This document shows, piece after piece, positions 3,117-33,093 of a DNA stretch of 37,032 nt. The stretch is taken from assembly GCA_020860645.1 (NCBI GenBank), contig JAJBTX010000048.1:1-37032 (forward strand), read 5' to 3'. Below the pieces are notes generated by a model. The model searched no databases and was not told the origin of the DNA. It saw nothing but the letters and a program-made list of their open reading frames with translations. Both the position numbers and the translations under genes were made by a program. Each line of letters begins with the position of its first letter. Position 1 is the stretch's first letter. The stretch is from Lachnospiraceae bacterium (lineage in GTDB: Bacteria; Bacillota; Clostridia; Lachnospirales; Lachnospiraceae).

Positions 3117-3142
3117 TTTTATACCTCTCTTATTCTTTCCCC

Positions 3143-3171
3143 ATCATACCATACCAAAATAGGATTTACAA
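3143..3171 (-). promoter_or_regulatory. Sigma-A promoter of hsdM
   Basis: Minus-strand TTGTAA (3166-3171), a 17-base spacer, then TATGAT (3143-3148), 27 bases before the hsdM ATG. The -10 matches 5 of 6 consensus bases and the -35 matches 4 of 6. Confidence 0.6.
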
Positions 3172-3228
3172 TTGAGCTATTTCATGTATCTGTTTTATTG
3201 GGGAGCAATTTATTCCTTTTGTCCAAAA

Positions 3229-3265
3229 AATGTTCCCCAAAAAGCATTGACTGCCGGGGAACATT
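3229..3265 (-). terminator. 10-bp inverted repeat with T-run, terminator-like on the minus strand
   Basis: AATGTTCCCC (3229-3238) and GGGGAACATT (3256-3265) are perfect inverted copies around a 17-base spacer. Read on the minus strand the right arm continues into a run of six T, as in an intrinsic terminator. It lies upstream of the hsdM promoter and no minus-strand gene precedes it, so it would only stop transcription antisense to the neighbouring plus-strand gene. Alternatively it is an operator or a remnant of a lost gene. Confidence 0.45.
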
Positions 3266-3373
3266 ATGGAAAAATAATATTGGTATTTGATGCAGTCCTG
3301 ATGTCCACCGAAATTCTGGCCAGCTTGTACTTGCAGATTCACACAATACTTACAAGAGAGGAACCATCCCACA

Positions 3374-3928
3374 ATGAACATCGCTGTCTACTTAGGAGCA
3401 AATGAAGGAAATCTCCCCGTTTACAGGGCGCGCGCCGCCGAGCTGGGGCGCTGGATCGGCGAAAACGGGCACCGTCTGATCTACGGCGGGAGTAAATGCG
3501 GCCTGATGGGCGTGCTGGCGCGGCAGGCGCTGGATCACGGCGCGGAGGTCATCGGCGTCGAGCCAGTGTTTTTTGTCGAACAGGAAATCCAGCTGGAGGG
3601 CCTGACTCAGCTCATCGTAACCAGCGATATGAAGGAGCGGAAAGCCCGGATGATGGAGCTTGCCGAGGTCTTCATCGCGTTCCCCGGCGGCACCGGCACC
3701 GCCGAGGAGATCGCCGAGGTGATCAGCGCCGGTTCACTCGGCCGCTTGCAGGGCATCTACGGTTATTACAATGTGAATGGCTATTATGAATTTGCGCGAA
3801 ACGGCTATGACCAGATGGTCTCACAGGGCTTTCTGTCCCCGGAAAAGAGAAAGAAAATCAAATTCTGGAATACTCTGGATGAAATTGCAACTGATTGTAC
3901 CGGCGGCTATGTGGATTGCATACTCTGA
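3374..3928 (+). CDS. LOG-family (TIGR00730) Rossmann-fold nucleotide 5'-monophosphate phosphoribohydrolase
   Basis: This 184-residue cytoplasmic protein has the full LOG/'lysine decarboxylase-like' fold. It starts with a Rossmann strand (MNIAVYLGANEG), then YGGSKCGLMGVLA, and then the signature PGGTGTAEEI at about residues 105-114, preceded by the conserved MKERKARMMELA helix. Family members hydrolyse the N-glycosidic bond of nucleoside monophosphates such as AMP or cytokinin ribotides. The bacterial physiological role is often unclear. GAGAGGAA lies about a dozen bases before the ATG, a slightly long spacing. The gene stands alone between two divergent or convergent neighbours. It is often annotated as lysine decarboxylase, which is a legacy misnaming. 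Confidence 0.9.
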   Translation: MNIAVYLGANEGNLPVYRARAAELGRWIGENGHRLIYGGSKCGLMGVLARQALDHGAEVIGVEPVFFVEQEIQLEGLTQLIVTSDMKERKARMMELAEVFIAFPGGTGTAEEIAEVISAGSLGRLQGIYGYYNVNGYYEFARNGYDQMVSQGFLSPEKRKKIKFWNTLDEIATDCTGGYVDCIL

Positions 3929-4037
3929 AGAGCACGACACGCAGTTAGTACTCTAAAGAGCATAAATCCTTTAGGATAAATCGTTTAGGACAAGTGCCTG
4001 CATGCAAGGACACATAGACCTCGGACGAGCCAGCTCT

Positions 4038-4703
4038 TTAATACAAGCAGCTCAGCTTCCGCTCCTCCAGATACCGCAGCATCCAGTAGGGGTTCACCGC
4101 CGTCTCCTGGTCCGCGCCGAGCGGGATGTAGACGCCGACATGCAGATGTACCGGAAACTGCCCCGTCGTGCCCTCCTCGCCGTAGCCGGAGTCTCCCATA
4201 TAGCCGAGGATTTCGCCCGCCAGGACGCGCTCCCCGGTCTGCCAGTCCTTCACATAGGAATGCAGATGCGCGTAGTAATAATAATTTCCATTTTCGGAGC
4301 GGATGCCAATGCGCCAGCCTCCCTTTTCGAGCCATCCCACCTTCTCCACAATGCCGTCCGTCATACTGAGCACGGGATAGTAACCGCTCTTATCGAGATC
4401 TGCCATGATATCAATGCCTTCGTGGCTGCGCGTCCCGCCGTAAGTCCGCTCCGCGTGCCAGGTATTTTCGAAGGAGACGGTCGCAGCCGCATTCGTCTCT
4501 GACTCCGGCACCGGAAAACAGACCAGCTCCTCCCAGACGCCATCCAGCAGTGTCTCGTATTCTTCGAATTCGCTGCCTGTATTCGAATCGGCAGGCATTT
4601 GATCCGCCAGAATCCCATCCAGCCATAGAAGCTCCCCCGCGATCAGGCAGGCCAGCAGGAGCACGGCAAGAAGCATACACGCGATTCGCCGGATCGAATT
4701 CAT
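4038..4703 (-). CDS. M23-family zinc peptidase, membrane-anchored
   Basis: This 221-residue protein has an N-terminal hydrophobic segment (about 8-30), so it is exported and probably anchored with the catalytic domain outside. The M23 (LytM/lysostaphin) metal site is complete: H94-xxx-D98 (HEGID), H146-L-H148, and the final H186-L-H188. Such enzymes cut peptide cross-links of peptidoglycan, or act as scaffolds when the site is degenerate; here it is intact. The ATG at 4703 follows GGGCGGTG. It is divergent from the sporulation gene ylbJ with only 55 bp between the starts. A sporulation or cell-envelope role is therefore plausible but inferred. About 110 bp of non-coding sequence with only weak stems separates its 3' end from the LOG gene. 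Confidence 0.88.
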   Translation of the reverse strand: MNSIRRIACMLLAVLLLACLIAGELLWLDGILADQMPADSNTGSEFEEYETLLDGVWEELVCFPVPESETNAAATVSFENTWHAERTYGGTRSHEGIDIMADLDKSGYYPVLSMTDGIVEKVGWLEKGGWRIGIRSENGNYYYYAHLHSYVKDWQTGERVLAGEILGYMGDSGYGEEGTTGQFPVHLHVGVYIPLGADQETAVNPYWMLRYLEERKLSCLY

Positions 4704-4727
4704 AATTCACCGCCCGCCCCATAAACT
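4700..4727 (+). promoter_or_regulatory. Candidate sigma-E (sporulation) promoter of ylbJ
   Basis: TCATAAT (4700-4706), a 13-base spacer, then CATAAACT (4720-4727). This compares with the known sigma-E elements KMATATT and CATACAHT at 6 of 7 and 7 of 8 positions. In B. subtilis ylbJ is a sigma-E gene. The element has the same spacing as the candidate upstream of yqfC in this window. The -10 also overlaps an inverted repeat, TAAACTG-N8-CAGTTTA (4722-4743). Confidence 0.5.
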
Positions 4728-4758
4728 GTACAAAGTCAGTTTACTATATGGTGTCCGC

Positions 4759-5709
4759 TTGAAAAAAATACTCTATATCTTCTGCTGTGTCGCCCTTCTC
4801 GCGCTTTTCTTCACACACCCGGCGACGGTTGCGCTCGGCTGTTCCGCGGGGCTGACGCTTTGGTATACGGCTGTTCTGCCCTCCCTGCTGCCCTTCCTCA
4901 TCGTATCGGGACTACTCGTCGGCACCGGACTTTTCCGCTATCTGAATCGTTTTTACGCGCCGCCGCTCTCCCGCCTGCTCGGTATCTCACAGGAGGGCTG
5001 CTATGCGGTGCTCATGGGCTTTCTCTGCGGCTTCCCGATGGGCGCGAAGGTCACGGCGGATCTCGTGCGCGAAGACCACATTTCCGCGGAGGAGGGAAAT
5101 TATCTCTTAAGCTTCTGTAACAATGTGAGCCCGGCTTTCCTGCTGAATTACATCTGCCTGGCGAAGTTCGGCTATCCGACAGTACCCTGGCCGCTGGTCG
5201 GCGTCTTCTACGCGGTTCCGCTGCTGTACGGATTCCTCACAAGGCCGCTGTGGCATTTTCAGAGAGAAAACAGGCGGACAGCAAAACAGGCGTCCCTGCG
5301 CCGGATTGATTTCCCGATGCTGGACGCCTGTATCATGGACAGCTTCTCGACTGTCACCCGCCTGGGCGGTTATATTATCCTGTTTTCCATCCTGACGAGG
5401 CTGAGCGCGCTGCTGCCGCTCGGGGCTTCCGCCAGTGTGCTGTTCAGCGCGCTGCTCGAAATCAGCGGCGGCATCGACGGAATCGTCTCAGCTGCAACCG
5501 ATCTTCCGTCCACACTGCAAACCTCGCTCGTCTGCGCCTGCGCGGCCTTCGGAGGCCTCAGCATCTGCGCACAGACTCAGAGCGTGATCGCCGATACGCC
5601 GCTTCGCCTGCGCAGCTATCTCGCCGGGCGGCTCGCCGTCACTCTGCTGACGCTTCTGTTCCTTCTGCTTCTGCCGTCTGCGGCGCCAGCTCTGCGCGGT
5701 TGCTGGTGA
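4759..5709 (+). CDS. ylbJ: Sporulation integral membrane protein YlbJ (nucleoside-recognition/GATE family)
   Basis: This 316-residue polytopic membrane protein has about eight hydrophobic segments. The family signature GFLCGFPMGAKVTADL lies at about 92-107, followed by LLSFCNNVSPAFLLNY at about 115-130. B. subtilis YlbJ is a mother-cell (sigma-E) protein needed for heat-resistant spores and is usually near 400 residues, so this copy is short. The start is a TTG at 4759, because in-frame ATG and GTG upstream are absent, and its ribosome binding site is poor, so the exact start is uncertain. The neighbourhood with coaD and rsmD matches the Bacillus ylbH-coaD-ylbJ order. Its last 71 bases overlap, on the opposite strand, the end of the coiled-coil gene. 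Confidence 0.85.
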   Translation: MKKILYIFCCVALLALFFTHPATVALGCSAGLTLWYTAVLPSLLPFLIVSGLLVGTGLFRYLNRFYAPPLSRLLGISQEGCYAVLMGFLCGFPMGAKVTADLVREDHISAEEGNYLLSFCNNVSPAFLLNYICLAKFGYPTVPWPLVGVFYAVPLLYGFLTRPLWHFQRENRRTAKQASLRRIDFPMLDACIMDSFSTVTRLGGYIILFSILTRLSALLPLGASASVLFSALLEISGGIDGIVSAATDLPSTLQTSLVCACAAFGGLSICAQTQSVIADTPLRLRSYLAGRLAVTLLTLLFLLLLPSAAPALRGCW

Positions 5710-17933: not shown

Positions 17934-20900
17934 CTACTTCAAATCCCTGAATGTATAGTATGACTTCTTCTTGTAGTTCCCGCTGGAATTCATAAGCCCC
18001 AAATAGAGGCCGCTCGCCGCCTCGCTAGTGTCGTCTAAATATGCTCGGTTCATGTATGCGTCCACCCGCGTGTTATTCATCGCTATTGTGTGCAATTGGC
18101 TGATTGCGGACGCCTGTAGGGATTCTTGCGAGCTGTTTCCAGGAACAGCCGTATATCCCTGCTCACCCAGAATCACGCGGATATACTCCGTTTCACCTTC
18201 CCCGATACTGTCCACACAGTTTTCCTGTATATTGTACGTTTTTTCCAGCGTCTCCAGATAGTCTGTCAACACACTCAGATTATACATAGAGATATACGCT
18301 GTGTTCGCGTTATTGACCGTATCGCTCGTCGGAGACCAGAAATCCACCTTCGTCAGCGGCTGCGAGTAGGGGTGATAGTTCACATTCCAGCGCATCTGCG
18401 GAGCGTTTTCAGCCATGTATTTCGCAAAGGTAGTAAGATAGGATTTCCCGCTATGCCCTTCCGTGGCCACCGTCCAGCTGTGGTCGAGCGAGATGAAAAA
18501 TCTGGCATGAGCGTCGTATTTTCGCACGGCCTGATACAGCAGCTGGAAGGCTTCCGCGTAGTTCGCCACACAGGCGCTGGTCGAGAGATTCCCCGAGTAG
18601 TTCCAGGCCTTGCAGCAGTTGACCTCATTGCCCAGCGTCCAGTTCAACACGCGGTATTTGCTCGGACTTTTTCCTTGATACTCGCTCCCACCCAGCTTGT
18701 AGCCCATATAACTGAACAAAGCCTCAAAGGTCTCCCGCGCCTTCTCCTCCTGCATGTTCAATGCATAATAGCTATAACCTTTCACACGCGCGGATGGATG
18801 AATCAGATAGGTCAGCTCTGAATCCCAGGCCAGCAACAGATCCACGGTCACATTAGTTCTGCTCGTAATGCCATATGCGGCTCCCGAATCCCAGCCATTG
18901 AGTCCAAGGATTGTTTTTCGAATGGAAACCATGTTCAGGAAGTAGTAGGTCGTCCCCTTATACACATAGGGTTCGTATGCATCTTTCCCATATTTCTTTA
19001 CGTTTGTCGTCGTCTTGATTAGCTCATTGAGCTTAATATTAATAAGCTCAGCCTCCACACCCAGAGCATTGGCATCAATGGGTTCTCCCTGCATACCCTT
19101 TTTGCTCTCAGTATTACCGCTATAATAAGAATGATACTTTAACTTTGTCGCCGCCCGAACCTCTGGATTCTGGATCAGCATCGGGTTCTCGCTGATGATC
19201 TGATACCCATCGTCCAGTACCGCGACGAGGGCAAAGCGATCCATCATGGTGCTGTTGAAATAGTCTTCTCCATCCGTCTCCGGATCCCATGTCACTGTTG
19301 CCGACCATGTTGAAATCGACTCTCCATCTTCATCAGTCACCTCATCTGCCTCCGCTTTTCCAACGAAATTCAGAATCTCGCTTCCCTGATTATCCATTTC
19401 CACGATGTATAATCGATCTTCCAAATCTGTATACTCGGCATCACTAATGGTATCACTGAACATAAGATGTACTTTCATTTTAGTATCAATACTTTCAATT
19501 GAATTAGTAACATCGCCATCTTCATCTACTTCCCAGGTAATCAACGCGTGATCGTTTGTATCATTGTCTTCATCCGAAGCCAGGCAGTCCGTCAGCGTGA
19601 CGCTGTCGGTCACCCCGCTCAGCTCCGCGAAGTTTTTGACGACCTTTCCTCTGTAGCAGCCGTCCGAATACTCGCTCAGCACCGCGCTGACACTTCCGTC
19701 GCTCTCGATGCGATAGGTCAGCGTGTAGTCTTTCCCTGCTGTCAGTGTGTAACCCGTGCTGTCCGCACCCGATTCCGTGCCGTCCTCCCCGGAAGCCGCG
19801 GAGACTGCGGAACCGTCAGACATCCGGCCATAGTCCGTGACCTCGATCTCCGGGATCCAGACCTCTGTATCGTCCACCGTTCCCTCCTCGAGGTATCCGG
19901 TGAATACGATCTCAAGATCGCTCGACGCCAGGCTCTTTTTGCGGATCGTGAAGGTGATGCTGCCCTCGCCCTCGCATGTGATATCGTCACTGCCAGTATT
20001 GTCTGCGGAGCTGCCGTCGCCATCCGTGGATTCGGAAGCTGATGCGGGTGTAACCGTGATGGTTGCCGTACCGGGTTCGGTATTATCCTCGTAAGTGACC
20101 GTATAATAGGCTGCATCCAGCGTGTTCTTTCCATCATTCCACTGCAGCGTCAGTCCCGGCGTAATCGCGCTTCCGGTATAGTCAGCTTTTGTACTGGTCA
20201 GCGCGTAGGTGACCTCATACTGCGTCCCGTCGGCGTCAACCACATAGAAGCCTTCCAGCGTCATATCCGCCACCAGATCACCCGCCATCAGGTAATTGCC
20301 GCTCTGATAGGTATTGTAAGTGAAGCCCGGCTCGTCTTTCACCGTGTAATGATCCAGATCCAGGTATTTGCAGCTCAGCACCTGCGTGCCGGCCGTGATT
20401 GCTTCGGTCTGCAGCGCCACGGTCAGCGTGATATCGTCATCCTCGCCCGTTATGATAACGGAGGCGTTTTCCTTCTCTCCGTCCCCATCGACGTCAAGAC
20501 TCGCGCCGTTCAGCGTGAAGGTACTGCTCTCCGGCTTCTCAATCACGGGCATGACATTCCCGTCCAGATAAATCAGCGTCACGGTCAGCGTACCGTCCAC
20601 ACCCAGCACCGGCTCGGTACAGTCCGTCCCGCCGCTCAGTACCGTAAGGGAAGAATCATCCCCGGCGTCCTCCTCCGCAAAGCGAATCTGGTAGACGCTT
20701 ACTTTTCCGGAGACCGAAAGCCCGGTATCACCCTGAAGCTGCAGCTCCGAGTTCGTCGAACCTGTCACGGAGCTCACCAGCGTATTGCCATCCGCATCCG
20801 TCGTACTCACGTCGTTCAGCGTCAGCGTATAAGCACCCAGCGACCAGGCCGCGGCCGTGGCCACGCCCACCTTGTTGACCGCCTTCATCGGGGAGAGCGC

Positions 20901-23900
20901 GACATTGTCAAACTCCGTATTGCAGCGCAGCGTCAGAGTTCCGGCGTAGTAAATCGTATACTGTTCGTCGTCACTGTAGATTCTCACGCTGCCCGCCTTT
21001 GTCGGGAGCGTCAGGGTGCTGTAGGAGCCGTTATTTGCCGTATTTCCTATCTCCACATTGTTCAGAAGCTCGATCTCATAGTTATCATAGACCTTTGTAC
21101 CGGTCTGATAGCGGCTCAGACTGTTGATCTCCGTCACCGCCTCCTCGAAGGTGGCAAAGAGCGTACTTCCAATCTCAGAGCTTACGTCATCCGCCGTCTC
21201 CAGATAATGCAGCCGCACCTCCATCCCTGAGGTGTCTGTATATTTGATCAGGCTGCCGGATTTGATGAGCCCGTAACCCGATGTCGAGGCACCCATACCG
21301 GCATTCTCTACAGTCGTTGTGCTCGTCTCTTCTCCGTCCTCACTTGATGTCGTAGTATAACTGGTCGTATAGTAAGGTTCGAACCAGGACGCATAGGCCT
21401 TCGACGCGGTCAGAAGCGTCATGCCGTCGTAGAGCTGCGCGAACTGCGTGGCGCTGTTATTGTAATACAGGCCTACCTGTATCGCTGCGTCGGCTGAACT
21501 GTCCGTGTCGGTCGAGCTGTCCGTCTCTTCTGTATCGGTCGAATCAGCCGTCTCTTCTTCACCGTAAGACACCTGGCCGGTGATTGTGAGCTGGCTCACG
21601 CCGCTGCTGTTCTGCTTCGCGAAGATCTGATTGTCATAGTCAAGGCAGACGATGGTTCCCAGCTTGACAATCCCATCGCCCGTAGCGTCGGTCCCAGCTG
21701 AGATCGTGGCGCTCTCCAGCGTCACCGTGCCGGTGCAGGTAATATTCTTCGCGCTGAGCGTACTTCCGGAAAGCTCCGTGTCATCGACCATCTGCATCGT
21801 CAGGTTTGTCGCCGTCAGCGCGCCGTCCGGCACGGTGAGCTCCACACTGTCATACAGGTTCAGGTTCGTGACGCCAGTAAGACTCCCGGAAATCACGAGA
21901 GCGTCAAGGCTGCCCAGTTCATTATAAAAGCTCACTGTCCCGTAGTTCGTCAGCTTTGTCGCGACGGTGGTCAGGGGAGCATCTCCATCCCCCTGATAGA
22001 AGGTAAAACTGCCTTTCGAAGCGCCGTTAACCGTTCCTATCAGGCTTTCCCAGGTCGTGCCATCCTCCGAAGAGACGCTGCCGGGGAGCGCGTTCAGCAC
22101 CAGATCCCAGCTGCTGCCCGTGATGTTGAAGGTCGTGGAGCTGTAGCTCGTCACACCGGATGAGGTCGTCTTTTTCAGCGCAATCAGACCCACGCTCTCA
22201 AAGGTCGTATCGCAGCGAAGCGTCAGCGTCGTACCGGTGAAGAAGAAATAATAATTCACAGATGACTCCGCCGTGACAGTGTCACAGCAGTCGTCATCTT
22301 CGCTTTCGGCTTCCGTCCCGGAGTCCGCAGTCTGCGCTTCCTCTGTCAGGGTCTCTTCTTCCTCAGTCGTCTGTTCCTCACTTTCAGAGGCAGTCTCCTC
22401 ATACGGCGCGATACACACAGCCGCCGCCTTCGTCGGCATGGAGAGTGTAGCCTTTGGCGAGGAGGCGCTTCCCACATTTGTCATGAGCAGCATCTCGTAA
22501 TATGCGTCCGTGTCCGCGATGCGGTCGATCTCCTTCACCGCCTGATCCCAGTCCAGGAAGTCGGCCTGATAGACCGCCTCCGACATCTCGCTGTCCTCAT
22601 AGCCGAGCAGCCGGACAGCCATCTCCTGGTCGGTCAGATACAGCCCGCCATCATACTTATACAAGGAATAAGCAGTCATCCCGCCATCATTGTCTTCATA
22701 AGCTGCCTTCGTGAACGTAAGGCTGTTACTGTCCGCGGCTGACGAATCAACCATCAGCACGCTGATATTTTCCGTCGAGGCCTTCGTCAGCACCGCGATC
22801 TTGTCATAAGAAGTCGGCGTCTCACCCTCGGCAATGTTCAGCGCGGCAGCCTCGTCCTCGGTCATGGCATGGTAAGACTTATCCGTCGAGTCGTACAGAT
22901 ATGGCGCAATCTCCACCGTCACTCCGCTGACAGTTCCTGATATCGTGAGCTGGGTCGTCGATTTCGCGCTCGCCGTAAAGCCCGTATACAGGCGGACAAC
23001 CGGCGTTGCGTTCTCCGTTTCCTCCCCGCTGTTTTCTTCGTTTTCTGCCTCTTCCACTGCGCTCAGCGTCGTCAGCTTCATCGCCTTGTACGTGGTAATG
23101 GAAGAATCCGTGCCCTGCACGCTCAGATTCGTTATCGTAATATAAGAGTCCGCACTCAGGGAGGCGTCGTTCAGCTGCAGGTTCGTGGCCGTCACATAGC
23201 TGGCCGCATACAGCGAAGAAGCATTCCCCGAAGAATTCTCCTCCAGATCAAGCGTTCCAACCGACACCTGCTTCTTTACATAGACATCCAGGCCCTCCAC
23301 GCTCAGCGTCCCCTTCGAGCCGCTTACATAGCTGAACACCAGGTCAGCAGCCTGAATTTCCTCGTCTGTTTCAGACTCATCGGTGAGCGTTGCCGTTCCC
23401 TCCGCAAATGTCAGCGTATACGTGTAGCTTCCGAGCGTCGGGGTCAGGGAATAAGACGGCGTAAATCCCGTCTTACTGTTGTAGCTTCCCTCGGTCAAAA
23501 GGATATTTTCAAAGCACACATCGCACCTGGGCGTCAGTGTGCCCGTATAGCAGAGCACCGTGTAAGAATCGCTATCCGAAGCTGTGGTTGAATTTTCATC
23601 AGTCCCGTCAGTGGATGACGTATCTTCGGAAGCGCCGACAATCGTCACCGAGGCCGCCTTTGTGGGAAGCGTCAGCGCACCGTAAGCGCCGTCCTTCGCC
23701 GTGCCCACTTCCCCCGTACTCAGGAACTCGATCGTGTAATCCGCCGCCGTATCCGCCGCGTTGTTGATGATCGTCACGGCCTCATAGAAACTGGCGGCAT
23801 AAGACACAGAGGAGGTTGACCCTTCCAGGGTCTTCGTGATGCTGACGGCCATGTCCTCTTTGTCTCCATTATATACATAACCGCTGGTATTCTTGTAAGC

Positions 23901-26900
23901 GATCCAGTTGGCTGCGGGAATCTCGTCGTTTCCGACAACCACAACACTGTATGTGACGCTCTCTGTCCCCTCGTCAGTCGTGCCCTCCGACGCGTCTGCT
24001 TCCGTATCGCTTTCCGCGTCATCTGCCGACCAATTCCCATAGGGATCGGCGACAAACATATCCGCGTCCGCCTTGAGCGCGGTGACAAGTATCACATTTT
24101 TATAAGAGTCCAGATACTCGACATAATTTGTCGTGCAGTCCGCCGTGGCCAGACGGAAAAGCAGCGAATCCGACACGGTCCCGGTGATCGTCATCTGAGA
24201 CAGCCCGGCGGAGGTCTGTTTGCTCGCCAGGTAGCCGCCGCTCATCCCGGAATTGTACACATTCGCGATGGAGGTCTTGCCAAGGGCGTCCCAGGAGGAC
24301 TCCCCGGTCAGCGTCAGGTCATAGACCGTCGCCGCGCCGCAGGTCGTGAGTGCCGTGTCTTCAAGCGCCAGATTCCCTATGCTGCTGATACCGGTCTTCA
24401 GACGCAGCGTGCAGTCGGTCAGCGTGACGTCCGTCGTCTTGTTCGTGCCGGTGATCTGGCTGATGAAGCCCGTAGTCTCCTCATATCCATTTTCCCACGT
24501 GTCATCCGCATAGGTAGACACATTATCGAGCGTCAGGGAAGCGCCCGCGTTCGATTTCGTCACCGTGATCTTAAAATCAGCCGCCGTCGTGTTATCCGAG
24601 TAGCTGCGCGTAGAATAGAGCTGCACGGATTCCAGCGTCAGATTGCCGTAGGCGGTAATATTTCCGTAAAACTGCAGCACTGTTCTGCCATCGCCTGCAT
24701 CTGTTTCATCCGTCTCCGTGCCGGTCGTGTCCTCGTTAGACGTGTCCTCAGCCACCGGACAGACAGTCACGGAGGCCGCCTTGTTGCTGCCGGGCATCGT
24801 GAGCGCGCTGTACGCATTGCTATCAGTGATATTCGTATCCAGCACATCGCCATCCAGTTCCACGGTGTAATCCATCGAGGAATCTGCGAGTACCGTGATC
24901 TCATTCACCGCCTGATTCCAGTCCAGACAGACGGTGCTGACTTCGACAGAATCCGCTTCATCCGAATTCTCTGTATAGACCAGCGTGACCGTATCCGGCA
25001 TCTCCTCATCGATCAGATAGAAGGCCTTGCTCGCCTTTACCAGCTGATAGCTTTTTGTGGAGCTGCTCTCTTCCTGTTCAGTATTATAGGCCTCTGCCAG
25101 TTCCTCCAGTGTCGACCCATCCAGAAGGAAGGTAAATGCGGAAGTCGGCGCTTTCGTGATATTTGCCAGCTTCTTCGCATCGGTCAGGCTGGTCTTAACG
25201 CCGCTCATACTCAGAATCAGATCCTCCGCCGTCAGGTCGCAGCTCATGTTCAGCTCCAGCGGATATGCACTGCTCCCGCTGACTGTACCGCTGATCGTCA
25301 GATACGTGACATTTTTCGCCGTTCTGCCGTAGGTGATCCGGTTCGCCCCCGCATCACTGTTTTCGCTCTCATCATTATTCTCAATATTCGTGATCGTCAC
25401 GGTGCTGTCAGCCGACAGCTCCGCGTCCCCCTGCAGGGTAAGTGTGGTGGTCGTGACCGTGCCGCCCGCAGTCAGCGTGACGCCATTTTCCAGCTCCAGC
25501 GTGGTAGCCTTCAGCACGCCCTGAATCGTTGTATTCTCGCAGACTACAAGTTTCTTCGAGTTCTGCACATTACCCGTCAGCGTCAGGCCCTCGCTGTCCA
25601 GCGTCGTGGTCTGCTTCGCGTTACCGGTGATCGCGCCGAGACCGGAATCATCGGCCACGGAGACATCCCTCAGCGTCAGATCATAGACGCCGGTAGAAAA
25701 GCCAAGCGTCGTTGCGACCTTTTTTGAGGTCATGGGCGCAAAAATCAAATCGTCGAACACAGTCGCGCATTTCAGCGTCAGTGTATTCGTATAATAGATC
25801 GCCTTCGCACTGCCCGTGGAGCTGCCCTCACTGGTGATGATGACCTCCGCCGCATAGGTGGGCAGCGTGACAGAGAGCGGGGAAGTGCTGCTCCCCACAT
25901 CCTGCAGCAGCATCAGCGTATAGGTCGCTCCAGAATCCTTCCGCGTATTGATTGCCGTCACAGCGTCAGAAAGGCTGGAATAATAATCGAGCACGTTTCC
26001 GGCTGCTTCCACATCCGCAAGACTGTATCCGGACCAGTCATATTCACAGAGAGCAATGACAATCTCGTCACCCTGGTAGACGTAGATGGCTGTTCCCGAT
26101 TTTTGCAGCATATAGCCGCTCGTATCCTCAGAGCTGTATTCCTCGCTGCAGCCCACATTCTCATCCCACGGAAGGAATTGATTCGCGTCGGCATTTTTCG
26201 CTGTCAGGAGCTGCCCGGTCGCGGACGGCGCGTCTTCGAGCGTCACAGCGACATCGTTAATCGTCTCCGTCAGAGCCGGATAGACGCCTACATGAATCCG
26301 ATCCGCACTCTCATCCTGCAGCACCACCGTACCGGACACATTGAGATATGGTGCTTTATTCGCAGCCTGCCGCCGGGTGTAGAGATACGCCTCGTCGGTG
26401 GTGCAGGTCAGCGTGCCCGTGACATTGAAGGTCTTGTCCGCCATGATCTCCGTCTCTCCGGACAGCGTAAGGTTCTTGATGGCGATACTGCCCTCCACGT
26501 CCAGCGTGCCATTCTGGAACACCGCGTTCGTGACCGAAACGGAAGCCGCGTAGCTGCCCGCCTCATTACTGTACAGCACAATCGTGCCCTGGTTGTTCAG
26601 CGTCGTGGCATTTAAGGCCGGAGCCGTCCAGGTCTTCTGATTTGTCGTGTATTCTTCAATAATAAGCGTCTGAGAGCTCGGTACCGTGACCTCCGCAAAG
26701 CTTTTCACGGAACCACAGATCAGACTCGTGTCCTCCTCCAGTTCAAACTCATTCGTTTCCGTAAACAGGCGCGCGCCCGTGCCGAATATCAGCGTACCCT
26801 TATTGCTGCCCGTCAGCGAGAGCGGCGTATGGAAAATCACATCGCCCTCGATATCCAGCGTGTAAGCGCCGACTGAAAGCGCCATAACCGGCGGGTAATC

Positions 26901-29900
26901 GGTGTATTTATCAGCCGTCGTGACATAGGTCGAACCGGACTTCACCATCTGGACAAGATCGACATTTTGCAGCGTTGTATTGGCAGTCAGCGAGATGCTG
27001 CCCGTGAAATATACGGTATTGGTCGTCCCGTCGATCAGCAGGCTGCTCACGTATGCCGCCGTGGGCATCGTCAGCGCGGCAGGCGAGGAGTATGTCGAAG
27101 TCGTAATCGCCGTCTGCAGCTCCATCGTATAATCCCGCTTCGTCTTCAGGTTGTTGATCTCCGTCGAGGCCTGGGCGATCGTCAGGCAGTACGTCTCCAT
27201 ATCTGCATCCCAGCTGTCCGCATGATCCTCGTCCGTGTAGGTCAGCAGAACGCCGGGCTCCGTCGTCGTGCAGGTCAGATAACCGGAGGACTTGATCAGA
27301 TAGAAGCCTGTTTTCTCCGCATTCTGCACGGAAATCTGCTTTGTGGAGACATTCAGCGCTTTGGCAATCTTGACTCCGGAGGCCAGCAGGCTCGCATCAA
27401 CCGCACCGCTATCGTCAAAATCCAGTTCCGCATACGTCCCATCACTCTGCTTCTCCTGAAGCCCGAGCGTCAGGCCGTCATCTTCCGCCGCAAACACGTC
27501 CCCGTTGATCGTCATGCTCGTTGAAACCGCGGTGATTACATTATTTTTGCGCGTGACGGTCGCGCAGCCGATCAGCGCGGGCGCCGTCCCATCTGCCGTC
27601 TCCGCATAGAGATTTCCGATGTTGACCGTGCTCTGCACGCTCAGCGTCGTCCCATACAGATATACATTTCCCACGCCCGACACGGTGCCTGCCACCGTCA
27701 GGTCACTGCCGGAAAGAGTCAGAGAGGAAGCCCCGCTCACACCGGAACCGGAAATCGAAGTGATCTTCTTATCTTCCGCTATATCACAGCTTTTCAGCAC
27801 AAGCGACCAGGCGCTTAAAGCAATCGTGCCGGAGCTCTTCGGGGACAACGTGATGTTTTCCAGGGTCACGTTGCTCTTCAGCGTAATCGAGGAGCTGAAA
27901 TAAATCGTCTTCTTTGTATTGTCAGAACTGGTTTCCGAGACGTCGGTCTCATCACTAGTGGCGGCGGCACTGTCCGTCTCCGTCACGCCGGTGATGACCA
28001 GCCCCGCCGTCTTCGTCGGGAAGGTCAGGTTCGTGCTCGTCTTTGTCACTACATCGACGGTATCGTCCTGTATCGTGATTTTATACTCGGCGCCCGTGTC
28101 CGCCAGACGGTCGATCTCCGAGAAGGCCTCCTGCAGCGTGGCAAAACCTCCATTCGTCACATAAGTGTCTCCATCTGTCAGCAAAGTGGACAGCACAACC
28201 GCGGCCTCCGAAGTGCCGCTTCCGCAGCGGATCACGGTACCATCCTTGTACGCAGCGTACGATACGCTGTACGTCGTATCGCCTTCGTCATCCGTTGACT
28301 CTGTCATTTCTCCGACATAAAACCAGCTGGCGGAAACCTTCGTGGCGTTCAGAAGGGCGTCGTCCTCAGCATATCCTGCACCGCCCTTGTCCTCCAGCGC
28401 ATGCACGATCACGCGCAGCGCGGCTCCGCTCACAGAAGTCTCCGGCAGGTCGCTGTCCGCATCCTCTGCAAATCCGGTGACCTGCACCGTCACATCGCCA
28501 TAGAGATCATCTGCGTCAGTACTCACCGTTCCGGTAATGGTCAGAATATTTGAGCTGCTGTTCCCGCCGTAGCCCAGCACATTGCCCGCGCTGCCCGACA
28601 CCACGTTCACAAGACTCATCTTGCCGTTCGTGTCCAGCATGGAATATCCGAGCGCTTCGGAATCCTCTGTATCTTCGGAACCTTCCAGCGTCAGCGTATT
28701 GGTAACTGCCACAGAGCCCTGCGCTGAAATAACAGAACCCTTCAGCGTCATATAAGTCACCGCCGCGATCGCGGAGCCGGTCGAACTGAGGCCTGTGCCG
28801 ATCGTAAGCTCAGAATCAGACACATTTATGGTACCGATTGTATTCAGGTAGCGGGCAGTGTATAGTTCACTATCCTCCACTATGAGCGTGGAGGCCGTCG
28901 TTCCCCTGATATAATCAATATAACCATCCTCCGCCAGCACATTCGTCAGCGTCAGATCTTTCCCGTTCAGCGTGATCACGCTGGCATAGGGTTCATACTC
29001 GCCCGAAGAGCTGCTGTATTTTGTCGGCTGCAGCTCGATATTTTCAAAGCTCGTGTCCACGGTCAGCGACAGATTTCCCACGAAGGAGAATACGACTCTG
29101 TCTTCATCGCTGTCGCCGACTCCCCGGAAAATGAGCTCGCCCACCTTCGTCGGAAGAGTCAGGCTTTCCTCTATGATCACATCGTCCGTCAGTTCAACGA
29201 TATAGGTCATGGAAGTGTTGGCAAGCGTGTTCAGATAAGACTGGGCGTCCGTCCAGCGGGTAAAAGCGGCGAGCAGCGTCTCCGTTCCATTCGTCCCCTG
29301 TGCGTAAACGGCGATCCACTCACCGCCCACGCAGATCTTCTGTCCATTCTGATAGACGACCGTATAAGAGGAATAATCCTCAGAAGTCGTCACGGTCTCC
29401 GGCTGCTCCACCTTGCAGTACGCGACCGGGAAGCTGGAAATCTTCGTGGTGAAAAGCGTCGTGCGCGGAGACGCGCCCGCCACCGTGTATGCGCCGTCAT
29501 CATCCAGAACCGGATCTCCGTCTTCGTCGACGGCGACGATCCCGCAGCTTAAATAGACTTCCGTGTTCGTCTGCGATACCTTCGTCAGAAATGACACGGA
29601 CGCCCCCTCATACTGATAGAAATGCGCGTCGCCCTCCGTCTCGCCGTCCTGGCCGCCGAGCACGGTATTGTAGATTGTGGCAGACTCCTTCACCACGAAG
29701 ACGGAATCCGCCTCCAGATACGTCGTCCCGCTGCTCGCCTGCACAAAGGTGCTGCAGACGAACACTGCGCCGCTCTTATTGTCCAGCGTGGAAATCGTCT
29801 TTGCCGTCTCCACGCGCAGCGTACCATAATTCTCGATCGAGCCGGACACCGTGTCCACCGACCAGTCGCCGGAATTTACATAGAGCTGTTTGACCGTGAT

Positions 29901-32900
29901 AACAGAATTTAACGTATAAGAACGCGTATCTTCCTGCGTTTCGCCACTGTCCGCTGTCTCGTCTGTTGCAGCAGTACTCTCTGTCTCTTCCAGCAGCACG
30001 GAGCCGCTGCCCGCCGTGATGTTCACACCATCAATAAGGAGTGTGCTGTCCTCCTCGTCATTTTCCGACGCAGTTGTATCCGTGCTTTCCGTCCCTGCAT
30101 CATCCGATGCCGTCGTGTTCAGCGATTCTCCATCCGCGAAGGTAACAATCCGGAAAGAATAGCTCCCGGAAGACGGCGTCGCCGTCAGACTCAGCGTGCC
30201 ATTCGTCGACGCCGAACTCACCAGACGAAGTCCCTCGTGCAGCGTCACAGTCGCCTTTGAGGAGGAAAGCGTATAACCATTCAAATCAAACTCCGCGTAG
30301 GAATAGAGAACATTCCCATCCTCATCCTCCTCCGAATCCGCCGTCAGGATCAGCTCCGTCACATAAGTCGGCAGGGTGATGTTCTTCGTCATCGCCGAAT
30401 CATGCACAAAGACAAAGGTGTAGCTTCCCTCCTCGCTGCCAAAGGCCGCGGCCAGGCCGCTGACCGCCAGATCAAAGCTGCCAAAATTTGCGAAAGCATC
30501 CCCGTATTCCACGCGCACCACCGCGTCATAGACTGTGATCGTGGACGTATTCCGGTACAGGCACTGCTCATCATTTTCCGTCAGGCAGAAATATGCTACG
30601 GGAATGTTCGCGTCCGACTGGCTCACACGGAGAGCCGTCTCCCCGTCTTCGTAGAGAACGTATGTCGGCCCGGCGTCTTCATAATATTCCCATGTGCAGG
30701 CATCCACGGTCAATTCCCGCTTTCCCAGGCTGACCGCGTAGCTCAGCGCCGACGCCTTCGTGAGCGTACCGGTAATGCTCAGTTCCCCCTGTAAACAGGG
30801 ATTCTCTGTGTCTGTGCTCAGATAAACCGTATCCAGATTGATATAGAAGGGTTCATAGGTTCCATCTTCATCCGTACTTCCCGCAACGACGGAAAGATCC
30901 GGAATCTCGGCCTCCTCGCGGATCGAGAGCACGCTTCCGCCCGCAGCCGTCAGGGTTCCGCTGAGTGTCATTGTGTCCACACTCAGGCTGATATTGCTGT
31001 CGCTGATCGTCAGGCCGCCTGATGTGGAAGAAGTATCAAAACTCAGACCTGGAATATCATATACCGTTGTATTCTCCTCATCTTCCGCTTTCAGAGTCAG
31101 AGAGAGGTCCTTCTCCACCACAACACTGCCGCTGCGATCGGCGGAGCTGTCGTAAACATTCATCTGAATCGTCGTGTCAAGGAAAACCGTCATCTGAAAG
31201 CCGTTCAGGTCCAGTTCGCAGGACTCTGCCCCCTCCGGCAGTTCCAGGATGCCGTCATATACATATACATTGTCGTACAGTTCCAGGCGAAAATCTATAT
31301 AAGTGTCCGTACACTCTTCGGCGTAGTCCGTGGCTTCGCGAAGACTGTCAAAATAACCCAGCACAGTCGCCGTCGTCGTTCCCCCGTTCTCATCGGAAAC
31401 GAGGCCAGAGAGCCGCACCGGAGCTGTCTCATCGTCCTGTTCCGTTACGGTGTATGCTTCCTCTTCCAGTGTCGGGTAGATAAAAGAAAAGCTTCCCATA
31501 CCGCTGAAGGTCATTTCCGGCAGATGATCCATGGAGACCGTGAAGGTATTGATATAACTCGCCGATCCGCTGCCTGCAAGGAAATAAGTATAAGCAATCT
31601 CAGAATCCTCGGAATCCGGATCGTCCCAGGTCACATCCACGAGATACCATTTACCGTCCATCTGCACGTAGTTCCACGCGTGGGAGCCCATATCGTAATC
31701 GGCCGAGGTCACCCCGTAACCGGTGACCAGCACACAGTCGATCCCCATCTCGTCGCAGAGCACCTTGAAGGCCTTGGAGTAACCATCGCAGACCACAGAT
31801 TTCTCATCATCATCACCATAGCCCAGGAAAGCCACGGAAGATGTGTGTGCGTAATCATAGGATGTGTCGTCCATATGATTCGCGGCGGTAGTATTATAAG
31901 TAATCGTATCACAGAGATAATCGTGAATAAGCTTCACGGCAGTATAGTCGCTGCAGCCGGTGCTGGTATAACTGGTCTCGCCCGTCTCATCGACAGTCTC
32001 CTCTTTCAGCCCCAGTTCTACCAAAATACTATTGACTGCCGCCCAGTATTCCTCGACCTGCGACATCGCACCATCATAGTATTCGCTGGCCGTCAGCGTA
32101 ATCTCAGCAATCTTCCCGGTATAACCGGTTGACGAATCGGAATCAGTGCTGGCGCTGATCTTATAACCGATTTTCATGCTGCTGAACCAGAAGACCTCCG
32201 GATAGTCCAGCCAGAACGCGTTGAAAGCCCGGCTGTACGCCTCGCTCATATCGTCGCAGGCAGCATTATAATTATCATCCGTTGTGATACTCTTCGTAAC
32301 AGTGCCATCCTCAGCCTCACTCTCAGTGATCGAGGCTTCAAAAGTGAGAGGATTCGACAGCGTAAAGGAGTACTCTCCTGTAGTATAATTTGTGGTATCG
32401 GTATAACCATTCACCATAGCCTCATAGAGCTGCAGAGCCACCGCGCCAACGGTCGTCCCGTCATCAAGCTGCGCGCCGAAAGAGCCGGTCCACTCCGTCG
32501 TCTCCTCTTCCTCCGAGATCGCGCTCACCGCATTTGTCTCAAGCGTCTCATCACTGACCCAGCTGTTGCCGCTCTCTATCTCCTCATAGGCAGTATATAC
32601 CTCATCCGCGCTGTCAGACTCTGTGTCCTCGTCCGCAGTGGACTCTGCTGCGGACGCACTGTCCTCTTCATCAGCGGCACTGCTGCCGATGGTCGTCCCA
32701 TCCTCGGAAGACGATGCGTCCGTCTCCGTGCTGCCGCCATCCGCGGAGCTGTCCTCTTCTGTCCCGGCGTCTTCGCTGTCCGCAGCGTCAGCTTCTACAT
32801 CCGTCCCACCAGTCGCATCATCGTCCGACGCCTCTTCGGAAGAGCCGTCAGACTCCTCGTATGCATCCGTTCCTTCCACCGCATAAGAGATGGCAGAATC

Positions 32901-32960
32901 ACCCGCCGTCATCGCCAGAATCAATACTATCGCAAGTAAGCGTTTCCAGTTTTTTTTCAT
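17934..32960 (-). CDS. Giant secreted multidomain protein (5008 aa): transglutaminase-like, ten beta-rich modules, DUF5722 hydrolase-like
   Basis: One uninterrupted frame of 15,027 bases. The ATG at 32960 follows GGAGGAGG, and a sigma-A promoter lies about 105 bases upstream. Residues 1-27 are a signal peptide (basic start, LLAIVLILAM core, cleavage after SYA). Residues about 29-145 are an acidic Ser/Asp/Glu/Thr linker. Residues about 330-460 form a transglutaminase-like domain with triad C391, H427, D442. Residues about 530-4225 hold ten divergent modules anchored on a repeated LTLPTKAxxVTI motif. An Ig-like stretch follows (about 4240-4350), then a DUF5722 domain (about 4490-5005) with candidate catalytic E4779 (LGNEVN) and E4933 (ILGEQGY). 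No LPXTG, SLH or choline-binding anchor is visible at the C-terminus, which ends YTFRDLK. It should be exported and act outside the cell, probably on or near glycans, but the substrate is unknown. The full architecture is not one I can name from known proteins. Confidence 0.93.
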   Translation of the reverse strand: MKKNWKRLLAIVLILAMTAGDSAISYAVEGTDAYEESDGSSEEASDDDATGGTDVEADAADSEDAGTEEDSSADGGSTETDASSSEDGTTIGSSAADEEDSASAAESTADEDTESDSADEVYTAYEEIESGNSWVSDETLETNAVSAISEEEETTEWTGSFGAQLDDGTTVGAVALQLYEAMVNGYTDTTNYTTGEYSFTLSNPLTFEASITESEAEDGTVTKSITTDDNYNAACDDMSEAYSRAFNAFWLDYPEVFWFSSMKIGYKISASTDSDSSTGYTGKIAEITLTASEYYDGAMSQVEEYWAAVNSILVELGLKEETVDETGETSYTSTGCSDYTAVKLIHDYLCDTITYNTTAANHMDDTSYDYAHTSSVAFLGYGDDDEKSVVCDGYSKAFKVLCDEMGIDCVLVTGYGVTSADYDMGSHAWNYVQMDGKWYLVDVTWDDPDSEDSEIAYTYFLAGSGSASYINTFTVSMDHLPEMTFSGMGSFSFIYPTLEEEAYTVTEQDDETAPVRLSGLVSDENGGTTTATVLGYFDSLREATDYAEECTDTYIDFRLELYDNVYVYDGILELPEGAESCELDLNGFQMTVFLDTTIQMNVYDSSADRSGSVVVEKDLSLTLKAEDEENTTVYDIPGLSFDTSSTSGGLTISDSNISLSVDTMTLSGTLTAAGGSVLSIREEAEIPDLSVVAGSTDEDGTYEPFYINLDTVYLSTDTENPCLQGELSITGTLTKASALSYAVSLGKRELTVDACTWEYYEDAGPTYVLYEDGETALRVSQSDANIPVAYFCLTENDEQCLYRNTSTITVYDAVVRVEYGDAFANFGSFDLAVSGLAAAFGSEEGSYTFVFVHDSAMTKNITLPTYVTELILTADSEEDEDGNVLYSYAEFDLNGYTLSSSKATVTLHEGLRLVSSASTNGTLSLTATPSSGSYSFRIVTFADGESLNTTASDDAGTESTDTTASENDEEDSTLLIDGVNITAGSGSVLLEETESTAATDETADSGETQEDTRSYTLNSVITVKQLYVNSGDWSVDTVSGSIENYGTLRVETAKTISTLDNKSGAVFVCSTFVQASSGTTYLEADSVFVVKESATIYNTVLGGQDGETEGDAHFYQYEGASVSFLTKVSQTNTEVYLSCGIVAVDEDGDPVLDDDGAYTVAGASPRTTLFTTKISSFPVAYCKVEQPETVTTSEDYSSYTVVYQNGQKICVGGEWIAVYAQGTNGTETLLAAFTRWTDAQSYLNTLANTSMTYIVELTDDVIIEESLTLPTKVGELIFRGVGDSDEDRVVFSFVGNLSLTVDTSFENIELQPTKYSSSSGEYEPYASVITLNGKDLTLTNVLAEDGYIDYIRGTTASTLIVEDSELYTARYLNTIGTINVSDSELTIGTGLSSTGSAIAAVTYMTLKGSVISAQGSVAVTNTLTLEGSEDTEDSEALGYSMLDTNGKMSLVNVVSGSAGNVLGYGGNSSSNILTITGTVSTDADDLYGDVTVQVTGFAEDADSDLPETSVSGAALRVIVHALEDKGGAGYAEDDALLNATKVSASWFYVGEMTESTDDEGDTTYSVSYAAYKDGTVIRCGSGTSEAAVVLSTLLTDGDTYVTNGGFATLQEAFSEIDRLADTGAEYKITIQDDTVDVVTKTSTNLTFPTKTAGLVITGVTETDSAAATSDETDVSETSSDNTKKTIYFSSSITLKSNVTLENITLSPKSSGTIALSAWSLVLKSCDIAEDKKITSISGSGVSGASSLTLSGSDLTVAGTVSGVGNVYLYGTTLSVQSTVNIGNLYAETADGTAPALIGCATVTRKNNVITAVSTSMTINGDVFAAEDDGLTLGLQEKQSDGTYAELDFDDSGAVDASLLASGVKIAKALNVSTKQISVQNAEKTGFYLIKSSGYLTCTTTEPGVLLTYTDEDHADSWDADMETYCLTIAQASTEINNLKTKRDYTMELQTAITTSTYSSPAALTMPTAAYVSSLLIDGTTNTVYFTGSISLTANTTLQNVDLVQMVKSGSTYVTTADKYTDYPPVMALSVGAYTLDIEGDVIFHTPLSLTGSNKGTLIFGTGARLFTETNEFELEEDTSLICGSVKSFAEVTVPSSQTLIIEEYTTNQKTWTAPALNATTLNNQGTIVLYSNEAGSYAASVSVTNAVFQNGTLDVEGSIAIKNLTLSGETEIMADKTFNVTGTLTCTTDEAYLYTRRQAANKAPYLNVSGTVVLQDESADRIHVGVYPALTETINDVAVTLEDAPSATGQLLTAKNADANQFLPWDENVGCSEEYSSEDTSGYMLQKSGTAIYVYQGDEIVIALCEYDWSGYSLADVEAAGNVLDYYSSLSDAVTAINTRKDSGATYTLMLLQDVGSSTSPLSVTLPTYAAEVIITSEGSSTGSAKAIYYTNTLTLKCATVFDDLIFAPMTSKKVATTLGFSTGVYDLTLRDVSVADDSGLGAITGNAKQTTTLDSEGLTLTGNVQNSKKLVVCENTTIQGVLKATTLELENGVTLTAGGTVTTTTLTLQGDAELSADSTVTITNIENNDESENSDAGANRITYGRTAKNVTYLTISGTVSGSSAYPLELNMSCDLTAEDLILSMSGVKTSLTDAKKLANITKAPTSAFTFLLDGSTLEELAEAYNTEQEESSSTKSYQLVKASKAFYLIDEEMPDTVTLVYTENSDEADSVEVSTVCLDWNQAVNEITVLADSSMDYTVELDGDVLDTNITDSNAYSALTMPGSNKAASVTVCPVAEDTSNEDTTGTETDETDAGDGRTVLQFYGNITAYGNLTLESVQLYSTRSYSDNTTAADFKITVTKSNAGASLTLDNVSTYADDTWENGYEETTGFISQITGTNKTTDVTLTDCTLRLKTGISSIGNLALEDTALTTCGAATVYDLTLTGESSWDALGKTSIANVYNSGMSGGYLASKQTSAGLSQMTITGTVSDSLLFRLATADCTTNYVEYLDSYKNVILVTALKADADMFVADPYGNWSADDAESDTEADASEGTTDEGTESVTYSVVVVGNDEIPAANWIAYKNTSGYVYNGDKEDMAVSITKTLEGSTSSVSYAASFYEAVTIINNAADTAADYTIEFLSTGEVGTAKDGAYGALTLPTKAASVTIVGASEDTSSTDGTDENSTTASDSDSYTVLCYTGTLTPRCDVCFENILLTEGSYNSKTGFTPSYSLTPTLGSYTYTLTFAEGTATLTDESETDEEIQAADLVFSYVSGSKGTLSVEGLDVYVKKQVSVGTLDLEENSSGNASSLYAASYVTATNLQLNDASLSADSYITITNLSVQGTDSSITTYKAMKLTTLSAVEEAENEENSGEETENATPVVRLYTGFTASAKSTTQLTISGTVSGVTVEIAPYLYDSTDKSYHAMTEDEAAALNIAEGETPTSYDKIAVLTKASTENISVLMVDSSAADSNSLTFTKAAYEDNDGGMTAYSLYKYDGGLYLTDQEMAVRLLGYEDSEMSEAVYQADFLDWDQAVKEIDRIADTDAYYEMLLMTNVGSASSPKATLSMPTKAAAVCIAPYEETASESEEQTTEEEETLTEEAQTADSGTEAESEDDDCCDTVTAESSVNYYFFFTGTTLTLRCDTTFESVGLIALKKTTSSGVTSYSSTTFNITGSSWDLVLNALPGSVSSEDGTTWESLIGTVNGASKGSFTFYQGDGDAPLTTVATKLTNYGTVSFYNELGSLDALVISGSLTGVTNLNLYDSVELTVPDGALTATNLTMQMVDDTELSGSTLSAKNITCTGTVTLESATISAGTDATGDGIVKLGTIVCLDYDNQIFAKQNSSGVSQLTITGQVSYGEEETADSTDTEETDSSTDTDSSADAAIQVGLYYNNSATQFAQLYDGMTLLTASKAYASWFEPYYTTSYTTTSSEDGEETSTTTVENAGMGASTSGYGLIKSGSLIKYTDTSGMEVRLHYLETADDVSSEIGSTLFATFEEAVTEINSLSRYQTGTKVYDNYEIELLNNVEIGNTANNGSYSTLTLPTKAGSVRIYSDDEQYTIYYAGTLTLRCNTEFDNVALSPMKAVNKVGVATAAAWSLGAYTLTLNDVSTTDADGNTLVSSVTGSTNSELQLQGDTGLSVSGKVSVYQIRFAEEDAGDDSSLTVLSGGTDCTEPVLGVDGTLTVTLIYLDGNVMPVIEKPESSTFTLNGASLDVDGDGEKENASVIITGEDDDITLTVALQTEAITAGTQVLSCKYLDLDHYTVKDEPGFTYNTYQSGNYLMAGDLVADMTLEGFYVVDADGTQYEVTYALTSTKADYTGSAITPGLTLQWNDGKNTLDAAYYTVTYEDNTEPGTATITVTPASASESTDGDGSSADNTGSDDITCEGEGSITFTIRKKSLASSDLEIVFTGYLEEGTVDDTEVWIPEIEVTDYGRMSDGSAVSAASGEDGTESGADSTGYTLTAGKDYTLTYRIESDGSVSAVLSEYSDGCYRGKVVKNFAELSGVTDSVTLTDCLASDEDNDTNDHALITWEVDEDGDVTNSIESIDTKMKVHLMFSDTISDAEYTDLEDRLYIVEMDNQGSEILNFVGKAEADEVTDEDGESISTWSATVTWDPETDGEDYFNSTMMDRFALVAVLDDGYQIISENPMLIQNPEVRAATKLKYHSYYSGNTESKKGMQGEPIDANALGVEAELINIKLNELIKTTTNVKKYGKDAYEPYVYKGTTYYFLNMVSIRKTILGLNGWDSGAAYGITSRTNVTVDLLLAWDSELTYLIHPSARVKGYSYYALNMQEEKARETFEALFSYMGYKLGGSEYQGKSPSKYRVLNWTLGNEVNCCKAWNYSGNLSTSACVANYAEAFQLLYQAVRKYDAHARFFISLDHSWTVATEGHSGKSYLTTFAKYMAENAPQMRWNVNYHPYSQPLTKVDFWSPTSDTVNNANTAYISMYNLSVLTDYLETLEKTYNIQENCVDSIGEGETEYIRVILGEQGYTAVPGNSSQESLQASAISQLHTIAMNNTRVDAYMNRAYLDDTSEAASGLYLGLMNSSGNYKKKSYYTFRDLK
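17937..19493 (-). other. DUF5722 domain (TIM-barrel glycoside-hydrolase-like) of the giant protein
   Basis: Features I associate with DUF5722 are DDGYQIISENPMLIQNP, GVEAELINIKLNELI, YKGTTYYF, LNWTLGNEVN, ARFFISLDHSW, NVNYHPYSQPL, SMYNLSVLTDYLE and RVILGEQGY. The Asn-Glu pair N4778-E4779 resembles the acid/base of clan GH-A enzymes, and E4933 sits where the nucleophile would be. The activity is inferred. Confidence 0.75.
19911..20249 (-). other. Ig-like segment of the giant protein
   Basis: Residues about 4240-4350 contain DYTGSAITPGLTLQW, YYTVTYEDNTEPGTATITV and ITFTIRKKSL. This is the pattern of small Ig-like (MBG/YDG-type) domains common in clostridial surface proteins. It separates the module array from the C-terminal enzyme-like domain. 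Confidence 0.6.
20286..31373 (-). repeat. Ten divergent protein-level modules in the giant protein
   Basis: A pattern recurs about every 290-480 residues. It has a helix of the form AVxEINxLAD, a strand YxIELxxDV, an anchor LTLPTKAxxVTI, then YxGTLTLRCDTxFENVxL, runs of short beta strands (LTLxxV, LxLxGDxxL), LTITGTVSG, and a closing YxLxKSGxxI. Anchors fall near residues 573, 865, 1270, 1648, 1967, 2366, 2722, 3100, 3510 and 3986. The first two copies are the most degenerate. The short-strand pattern suggests right-handed beta-helix or similar solenoid folds. The copies differ strongly, so the expansion is old. Confidence 0.8.
31581..31973 (-). other. Transglutaminase-like domain of the giant protein
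   Basis: The core reads SVVCDGYSKAFKVLCDEMG, then GSHAWNYVQMDGKWYLVDV, then TWDDP. This places the Cys-His-Asp triad at C391, H427 and D442 with the usual spacing. Bacterial members of this superfamily are mostly cysteine proteases or amidases rather than true cross-linkers. The triad is intact, so activity is possible. Confidence 0.85.
32526..32960 (-). other. Signal peptide and acidic low-complexity linker of the giant protein
   Basis: Residues 1-27 are the secretion signal. Residues about 29-145 are almost entirely Ser, Asp, Glu, Thr, Ala and Gly. Such a stretch should be disordered and highly negative, and may act as a stalk or spacer near the cell surface. Confidence 0.8.
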
Positions 32961-33064
32961 ATCGTATTAGCCTCCTCCGCAAATGCCAGGCTGCTCTTAA
33001 GCACCCCTTCACCTGTTGCAGGACTTTGCTGTCGTTTGCATGTCTTATGTAAATTACTTTTCTA

Positions 33065-33093
33065 ATTATACTGGATTTTGAAGAAAGATTCAA
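33065..33093 (-). promoter_or_regulatory. Sigma-A promoter of the giant gene
   Basis: Minus-strand TTGAAT (33088-33093), 17-base spacer, TATAAT (33065-33070). It predicts a leader of nearly 100 bases before the ATG at 32960. Confidence 0.7.

Follow-up and report, generated by a model that had tools for sequence, protein, structure and literature searches.

A 5,008-residue exported protein of a Lachnospiraceae bacterium with a predicted DUF5722 glycosidase on a conserved ten-module stalk

Among the literature examined, the adhesin-like proteins of gut methanogens are the nearest described long beta-helical surface proteins: passages of PMC11532034 describe those of M. smithii as long surface proteins of 128 to 4,691 amino acids (aa), and report right-handed beta-helical domains in some methanogen adhesin-like proteins and transglutaminase domains in another group. 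The 37,032-nucleotide (nt) stretch analysed here (the window; contig JAJBTX010000048.1 of Lachnospiraceae assembly GCA_020860645.1) encodes a 5,008-aa protein in which a transglutaminase-like (TG) region, ten beta modules and a C-terminal DUF5722 (PF18989) domain follow one another. Unlike this protein, the methanogen proteins are archaeal and mostly membrane-anchored, their TG group is shorter and lacks the beta-helix domain, and DUF5722 goes unmentioned in those passages (PMC11532034). For the C-terminus, the closest described enzymes are GH39 and other clan GH-A glycosidases (5jvk, PslG), which share only 12-14% identity with it in alignments. PslG, with catalytic residues Glu165 and Glu276 according to PMC7237758, and stated in an abstract to disrupt an exopolysaccharide matrix, is a mechanistic analogue only; the activity of DUF5722 is a prediction. 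In the literature searched, no paper names DUF5722, and nothing on this protein turned up.

We consider it reasonably probable that the protein is secreted as a fibre that cuts glycans and whose ends can be exchanged, its substrate and activity being predictions. The best-supported view of its parts is that the constant enzyme is a predicted DUF5722 glycosidase at the far C-terminus and that the TG-like N-terminus is optional. The match to PF18989 (E 9.3e-74, 249.1 bits against a cut-off of 30.5, profile positions 4-368 of 393) places the domain in this family, and the predicted model of this end (pLDDT 90, pTM 0.92) is a (beta/alpha)8 barrel of clan GH-A, nearest to GH39, with candidate catalytic glutamates where strands 4 and 7 end. 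DUF5722 is thus predicted from its model to be a clan GH-A glycosidase. An initial annotation, made from the sequence alone, had read this end as a hydrolase-like DUF5722 domain and proposed glycan breakdown; the former is borne out and the latter is probable. Membership of GH39 by sequence was rejected, as no GH39 model occurs among the 20 Pfam families matched by 49 DUF5722 members at E 0.1, a scan that gave one weak GH53 match. The domain is classed as GH39-like, on its predicted fold only, and not as GH39.

Purifying selection acts on every segment of the protein; the initial annotation had argued for maintenance by selection from the length of the frame and its intact motifs. Relative to the sister species G310, the ratio of nonsynonymous to synonymous substitution rates (dN/dS) is 0.24 in signal peptide and linker, 0.10 in the TG region, 0.18 in the modules, 0.23 in residues 4190-4500, and 0.15 and 0.14 in the C-terminal domains. 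As far as residue 4500 dS stays at 0.27-0.38, and past that point it is 1.7-1.8. Four comparisons of DUF5722 give a dN/dS of 0.11-0.14, dS being saturated in three. These figures, and those on replacement below, come from genomes G310, G306, G313 and G311 of the same genus, the fragment in G312 being used solely for the C-terminal tree and for checking residues. The low DUF5722 ratios, and the retention of both GH-A glutamates in all 17 aligned proteins, speak against the leading alternative, a giant adhesin that would attach to a partner or surface through its beta modules and whose ends would be mainly binding or docking domains rather than enzymes, which we regard as unlikely.

Judged from these sequences, the catalytic end was apparently replaced as one cassette between the source genome and G310, with its edge at codon 4460. 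In 20-codon bins, nucleotide identity between the two is 87-92% over codons 4300-4379, 78-80% over 4380-4419 and 95-100% over 4420-4459, then 47-80% from codon 4460 to 4640, the last bin listed; the 3' flank, beginning 36 nt beyond the first base of the stop codon, is again 95% identical at the DNA level. Amino-acid identity is 90.2% in modules 2-10 and 66.0% in the cassette, the corresponding values for G306 and G313 being 68.8% and 84.8%, for pairs that were picked after identities had been seen. The stalk tree joins the protein with G310 (support 100/100), and the cassette tree places it with G306 (85/98) and G310 with G312 (99/97). Rejection of a G306-G313 clade in the stalk tree (approximately unbiased (AU) test, p 1e-7) says little, because the pair omitted G311, the near sister of G313. 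At the other end, identity to G313 drops from 69% in modules 2-10 to 40% in module 1 and 42% in the TG region; this suggests a second kind of swap, although more rapid evolution there would leave a similar picture.

A bolder reading, somewhat less likely than not, is that the ancient ten-module stalk is a tool-holder, inherited and duplicated as one block, whose ends recombine as whole cassettes, a Lachnospiraceae lineage thereby re-arming one giant secreted fibre with different versions of DUF5722, a predicted clan GH-A glycosidase family that had no earlier assignment; such exchange is seen at the C-terminus, at the codon 4460 edge, and suggested at the TG end. On the main reading, the stalk would, after export, keep the glycosidase off the cell or bring it onto its substrate. 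DUF5722 would use the two glutamates of the retaining clan GH-A mechanism to cut a beta-linked polysaccharide, be it of host, dietary or biofilm origin, and the TG-like domain could covalently tether the fibre to an amine or act on a peptide bond. Exchange of an end on the conserved stalk would then alter the substrate and leave the reach unchanged. The locus is a clear example of close relatives that conserve a giant stalk and yet differ in the whole cassette at its catalytic end, and such a change is a route by which gut commensals could switch the glycan or partner acted on.

At the TG-like end, Transglut_core (PF01841) matches aa 332-442 (E 8.9e-9, 36 bits against a Pfam cut-off of 23) and the Cys-His-Asp triad is present, which together place the region in this superfamily; it also has a solved sequence relative (PDB 9crn, E 5.6e-13). 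Both enzyme-like ends thus exceed their Pfam cut-offs. TG-like domains are common in general (10 of 14 control genomes), and a search with this region at E 1e-15 gave matches in 57 of the 299 genomes of the family, inside a frame of more than 1,700 aa only in the source genome and in G227. Within the genus, the Pfam model matches one of six other proteins scanned (G314). The triad is intact in 6 of 14 aligned proteins, namely the 5,008-aa protein and those of G310, G306, G314, G301 and G227; for the remaining three of the 17 (G308, G013 and G312, the last cut at an edge) the TG region could not be usefully aligned, and in G308 the TG match sits in a separate 840-aa frame upstream.

The ten modules announced by the initial annotation were recovered with an iterated profile trained on the protein itself. 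It gave 14 hits, some modules being seen as two, and the modules start near residues 529, 815, 1225, 1598, 1917, 2319, 2670, 3047, 3461 and 3927 and end near 4190, all boundaries being approximate and some starts extrapolated. The modules are divergent, mostly beta and probably beta-helical. Recent tandem amplification was considered and rejected, since the other modules are 20-30% identical to module 6 and their order is held relative to G031 and to C100, a second giant of the same genome.

Several points weigh against a secreted glycan-cutting fibre as set out above. The TG triad is broken in eight of the 14 aligned proteins: its Cys is replaced by Gly in G313 and G311, which are giants of the same kind, and its residues are degraded in six shorter relatives (G320, G307, G305, G317, G315 and G316, the last two only partly covered by the alignment). 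The TG step therefore cannot be essential in all of them, and from these alignments this end, unlike the GH-A end, is dispensable or non-catalytic in many relatives; the key residues claimed for it stand in the 5,008-aa protein but not as a constant feature. A sequence search of the PDB found no relative of DUF5722 to E 1. The predicted model of module 6 reaches a pLDDT of only 77, Foldseek with the stalk model gave no match at E 0.001 or better, and one structural comparison of the module model covered 128 chains. As for an anchor, no LPXTG or NPXTG occurs in the last 150 residues, and no choline-binding or SLH Pfam model matches either half of the protein to E 1, so that it does not class as a wall-anchored surface protein; of the long surface fibre first proposed, the exported giant with its stalk holds and the surface location is a proposal. 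Finally, the AU test does not formally reject a cassette tree in which the protein and G310 form one clade (p 0.076); the swap is therefore argued from the drop in identity and the agreement of the 3' flank, with the caveat that the G310 contig may be chimeric, the assemblies being draft and multi-contig.

Sampled at one genome per genus, the family shows DUF5722 in 83 of 299 genomes; the domain was found in 3 of 398 genomes from the whole phylum, two of them belonging to the same family, and in none of 14 control genomes. Assignment to clan GH-A would thus give a testable function to a Pfam family of unknown function present in more than a quarter of the family genomes sampled. Its Lachnospiraceae members share the C-terminal domain and catalytic-type residues and often carry them on variable modules, including leucine-rich repeats (LRRs), Listeria-Bacteroides repeats, GBS_Bsp-like domains and choline-binding repeats (nine proteins scanned, from 16 mid-length loci). 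Unlike the protein studied here, they have a median of 788 aa among 80 frames kept of 103 found, some cut at locus ends, with only four reaching 3,000 aa; a TG match occurs, within the part examined, in one of the 80 (L059, 1,574 aa, degraded TG), although in four giants the locus ends before the N-terminus is reached. The combination of ends, unfamiliar to the initial annotation, is not unique. A TG-like region, often degraded, recurs with DUF5722 within the genus, and outside it G227 (5,648 aa, Pfam scan of aa 1-2000 and 2801-5648, with 800 residues outside the scan) and G301 (5,289 aa) have DUF5722 and a TG-like region with intact Cys-His-Asp. These two differ in their unrelated stalks of dozens of choline-binding repeats, with LRRs in G227. 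In G301 (L171:3009-18875) about 950 residues precede the TG region (aa 959-1247), which is followed by choline-binding repeats and DUF5722. A further giant, in G013 (L037:3810-18416; 4,869 aa), has about 40 choline-binding-repeat stretches and DUF5722 behind a different N-terminus, without Pfam match, that holds a zinc-site-like motif, HEFLHSLGYPD, which we take to resemble that of M6 peptidases.

Such repeats bear on a second and distinctly less likely alternative, namely that the TG-like and GH-A domains both target the envelope of the producing cell (peptide bridges together with a wall or capsule glycan), with the stalk as a spacer across it. G227, G013 and G301 share the C-terminal end and carry dozens of choline-binding or cell-wall-binding repeats, and the analogue PslG is said to act on the exopolysaccharide of its own producer. 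Passages of PMC11532034 also place a TG domain beside pseudomurein-binding repeats in one methanogen adhesin group. However, Pfam finds no wall-binding repeat in the 5,008-aa protein. Nor does the gene lie in an envelope operon: its surroundings are DNA-repair and housekeeping genes, presumably a DUF2284-like gene behind mutS and mutL on one side and a yqfD-phoH-ybeY run on the other.

Counterparts of the C-terminus occur in 14 of 17 genus genomes, the source genome included, and five of the genus proteins, the present one among them, are giants of 4,594-5,051 aa. The four others, each from a different species among the 16 other genomes, are collinear, unbroken frames of 4,594, 4,684, 4,760 and 5,051 aa, although that of G306 loses its 5' end at the contig boundary. 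The same yqfD adjoins those of G310, G313 and G306 as well as the G312 fragment, and the G311 contig holds little beyond the giant gene itself; the upstream DUF2284 and mutL genes were also seen only in G313, neither lying in the 1.6 kb examined upstream in G310. No neighbour gene of the window was found beside the shorter relatives in the stretches examined. That the frame is an assembly or gene-calling artefact fusing separate genes, which separate stalk and TG-DUF5722 genes in G314 and in-frame stops in G312 might recall, is rejected as scarcely credible given the collinear giants, three beside the same yqfD and a fourth filling its contig, and the purifying selection in each segment. Neither ground for refutation named in the initial annotation is borne out: the profile searches do find homology at both ends, and the comparison speaks against a false join.

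The feature coordinates are collected in Table 1. The 15-kb frame is stop-free over exactly the span first annotated, on the minus strand, which had not been stated, and with a signal peptide recognized by eye its product is supported as an exported giant. Among the signals first reported, the ribosome-binding site and signal peptide stand, but the promoter-like sequence is weak evidence, with one match observed against 0.6 expected in shuffles, not above chance.

Table 1. Features of the 5,008-aa protein gene, in window positions
Feature	Position	Strand	Basis
Entire gene (5,008 aa), starting with ATG; stop codon 17934-17936	17934..32960	minus	open reading frame and collinear counterparts
Promoter-like TTGAAT-17-TATAAT	33065..33093	minus	match count against shuffles
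Ribosome-binding-site-like GGAGGAGG, 10 nt upstream of ATG	32971..32978	minus	sequence
Signal peptide MKKNWKRLLAIVLILAMTAGDSAISYA, aa 1-27	32880..32960	minus	by eye from sequence
Low-complexity linker, acidic, Ser/Thr-rich, aa 28-180	32421..32879	minus	sequence
TG-like region, aa 181-520; Pfam core aa 332-442; candidate triad Cys391, His427, Asp442	31401..32420	minus	Pfam, PDB sequence relative, residue alignment
Beta module 1, aa 521-806	30543..31400	minus	self-trained profile, comparison
Beta module 2, aa 807-1216	29313..30542	minus	self-trained profile, comparison
Beta module 3, aa 1217-1589	28194..29312	minus	self-trained profile, comparison
Beta module 4, aa 1590-1908	27237..28193	minus	self-trained profile, comparison
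Beta module 5, aa 1909-2310	26031..27236	minus	self-trained profile, comparison
Beta module 6, aa 2311-2661, structure-modelled	24978..26030	minus	self-trained profile, model
Beta module 7, aa 2662-3038	23847..24977	minus	self-trained profile, comparison
Beta module 8, aa 3039-3452	22605..23846	minus	self-trained profile, comparison
Beta module 9, aa 3453-3918	21207..22604	minus	self-trained profile, comparison
Beta module 10, aa 3919-4181	20418..21206	minus	self-trained profile, comparison
Spacer, aa 4182-4459, Ig-like by eye, no Pfam match	19584..20417	minus	sequence
C-terminal cassette, aa 4460-5008: small beta domain and DUF5722	17937..19583	minus	identity and selection comparisons
DUF5722 (PF18989), aa 4616-5006; candidate acid/base Glu4779 (18624-18626), His4863, candidate nucleophile Glu4933 (18162-18164)	17943..19115	minus	Pfam, model, alignment

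Further stalk-bearing frames were noted. The source genome itself holds the second giant on contig C100 (L177:55-11400; 3,782 aa), with a similar start of signal peptide and linker and a collinear stalk of about 31% identity; it differs in the CAP and YDG domains in front, and no TG or DUF5722 Pfam match was found in it. A second stalk-bearing frame is also present in G306 (3,916 aa) and G310 (3,707 aa). On contig C23 of G314 (L178/L186, L165), a 4,153-aa stalk frame lies directly beside a 1,970-aa TG-DUF5722 gene on the same strand, an arrangement that looks like the 5,008-aa gene divided into two, and on contig C5 of G312 the stalk counterpart consists of several shorter frames with in-frame stops and may be decaying or misassembled. 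Elsewhere in the window, a 700-aa frame on the minus strand (1014-3116) with an NPPF motif, presumably akin to a type I restriction-modification methylase, adjoins an open frame at 1-993.
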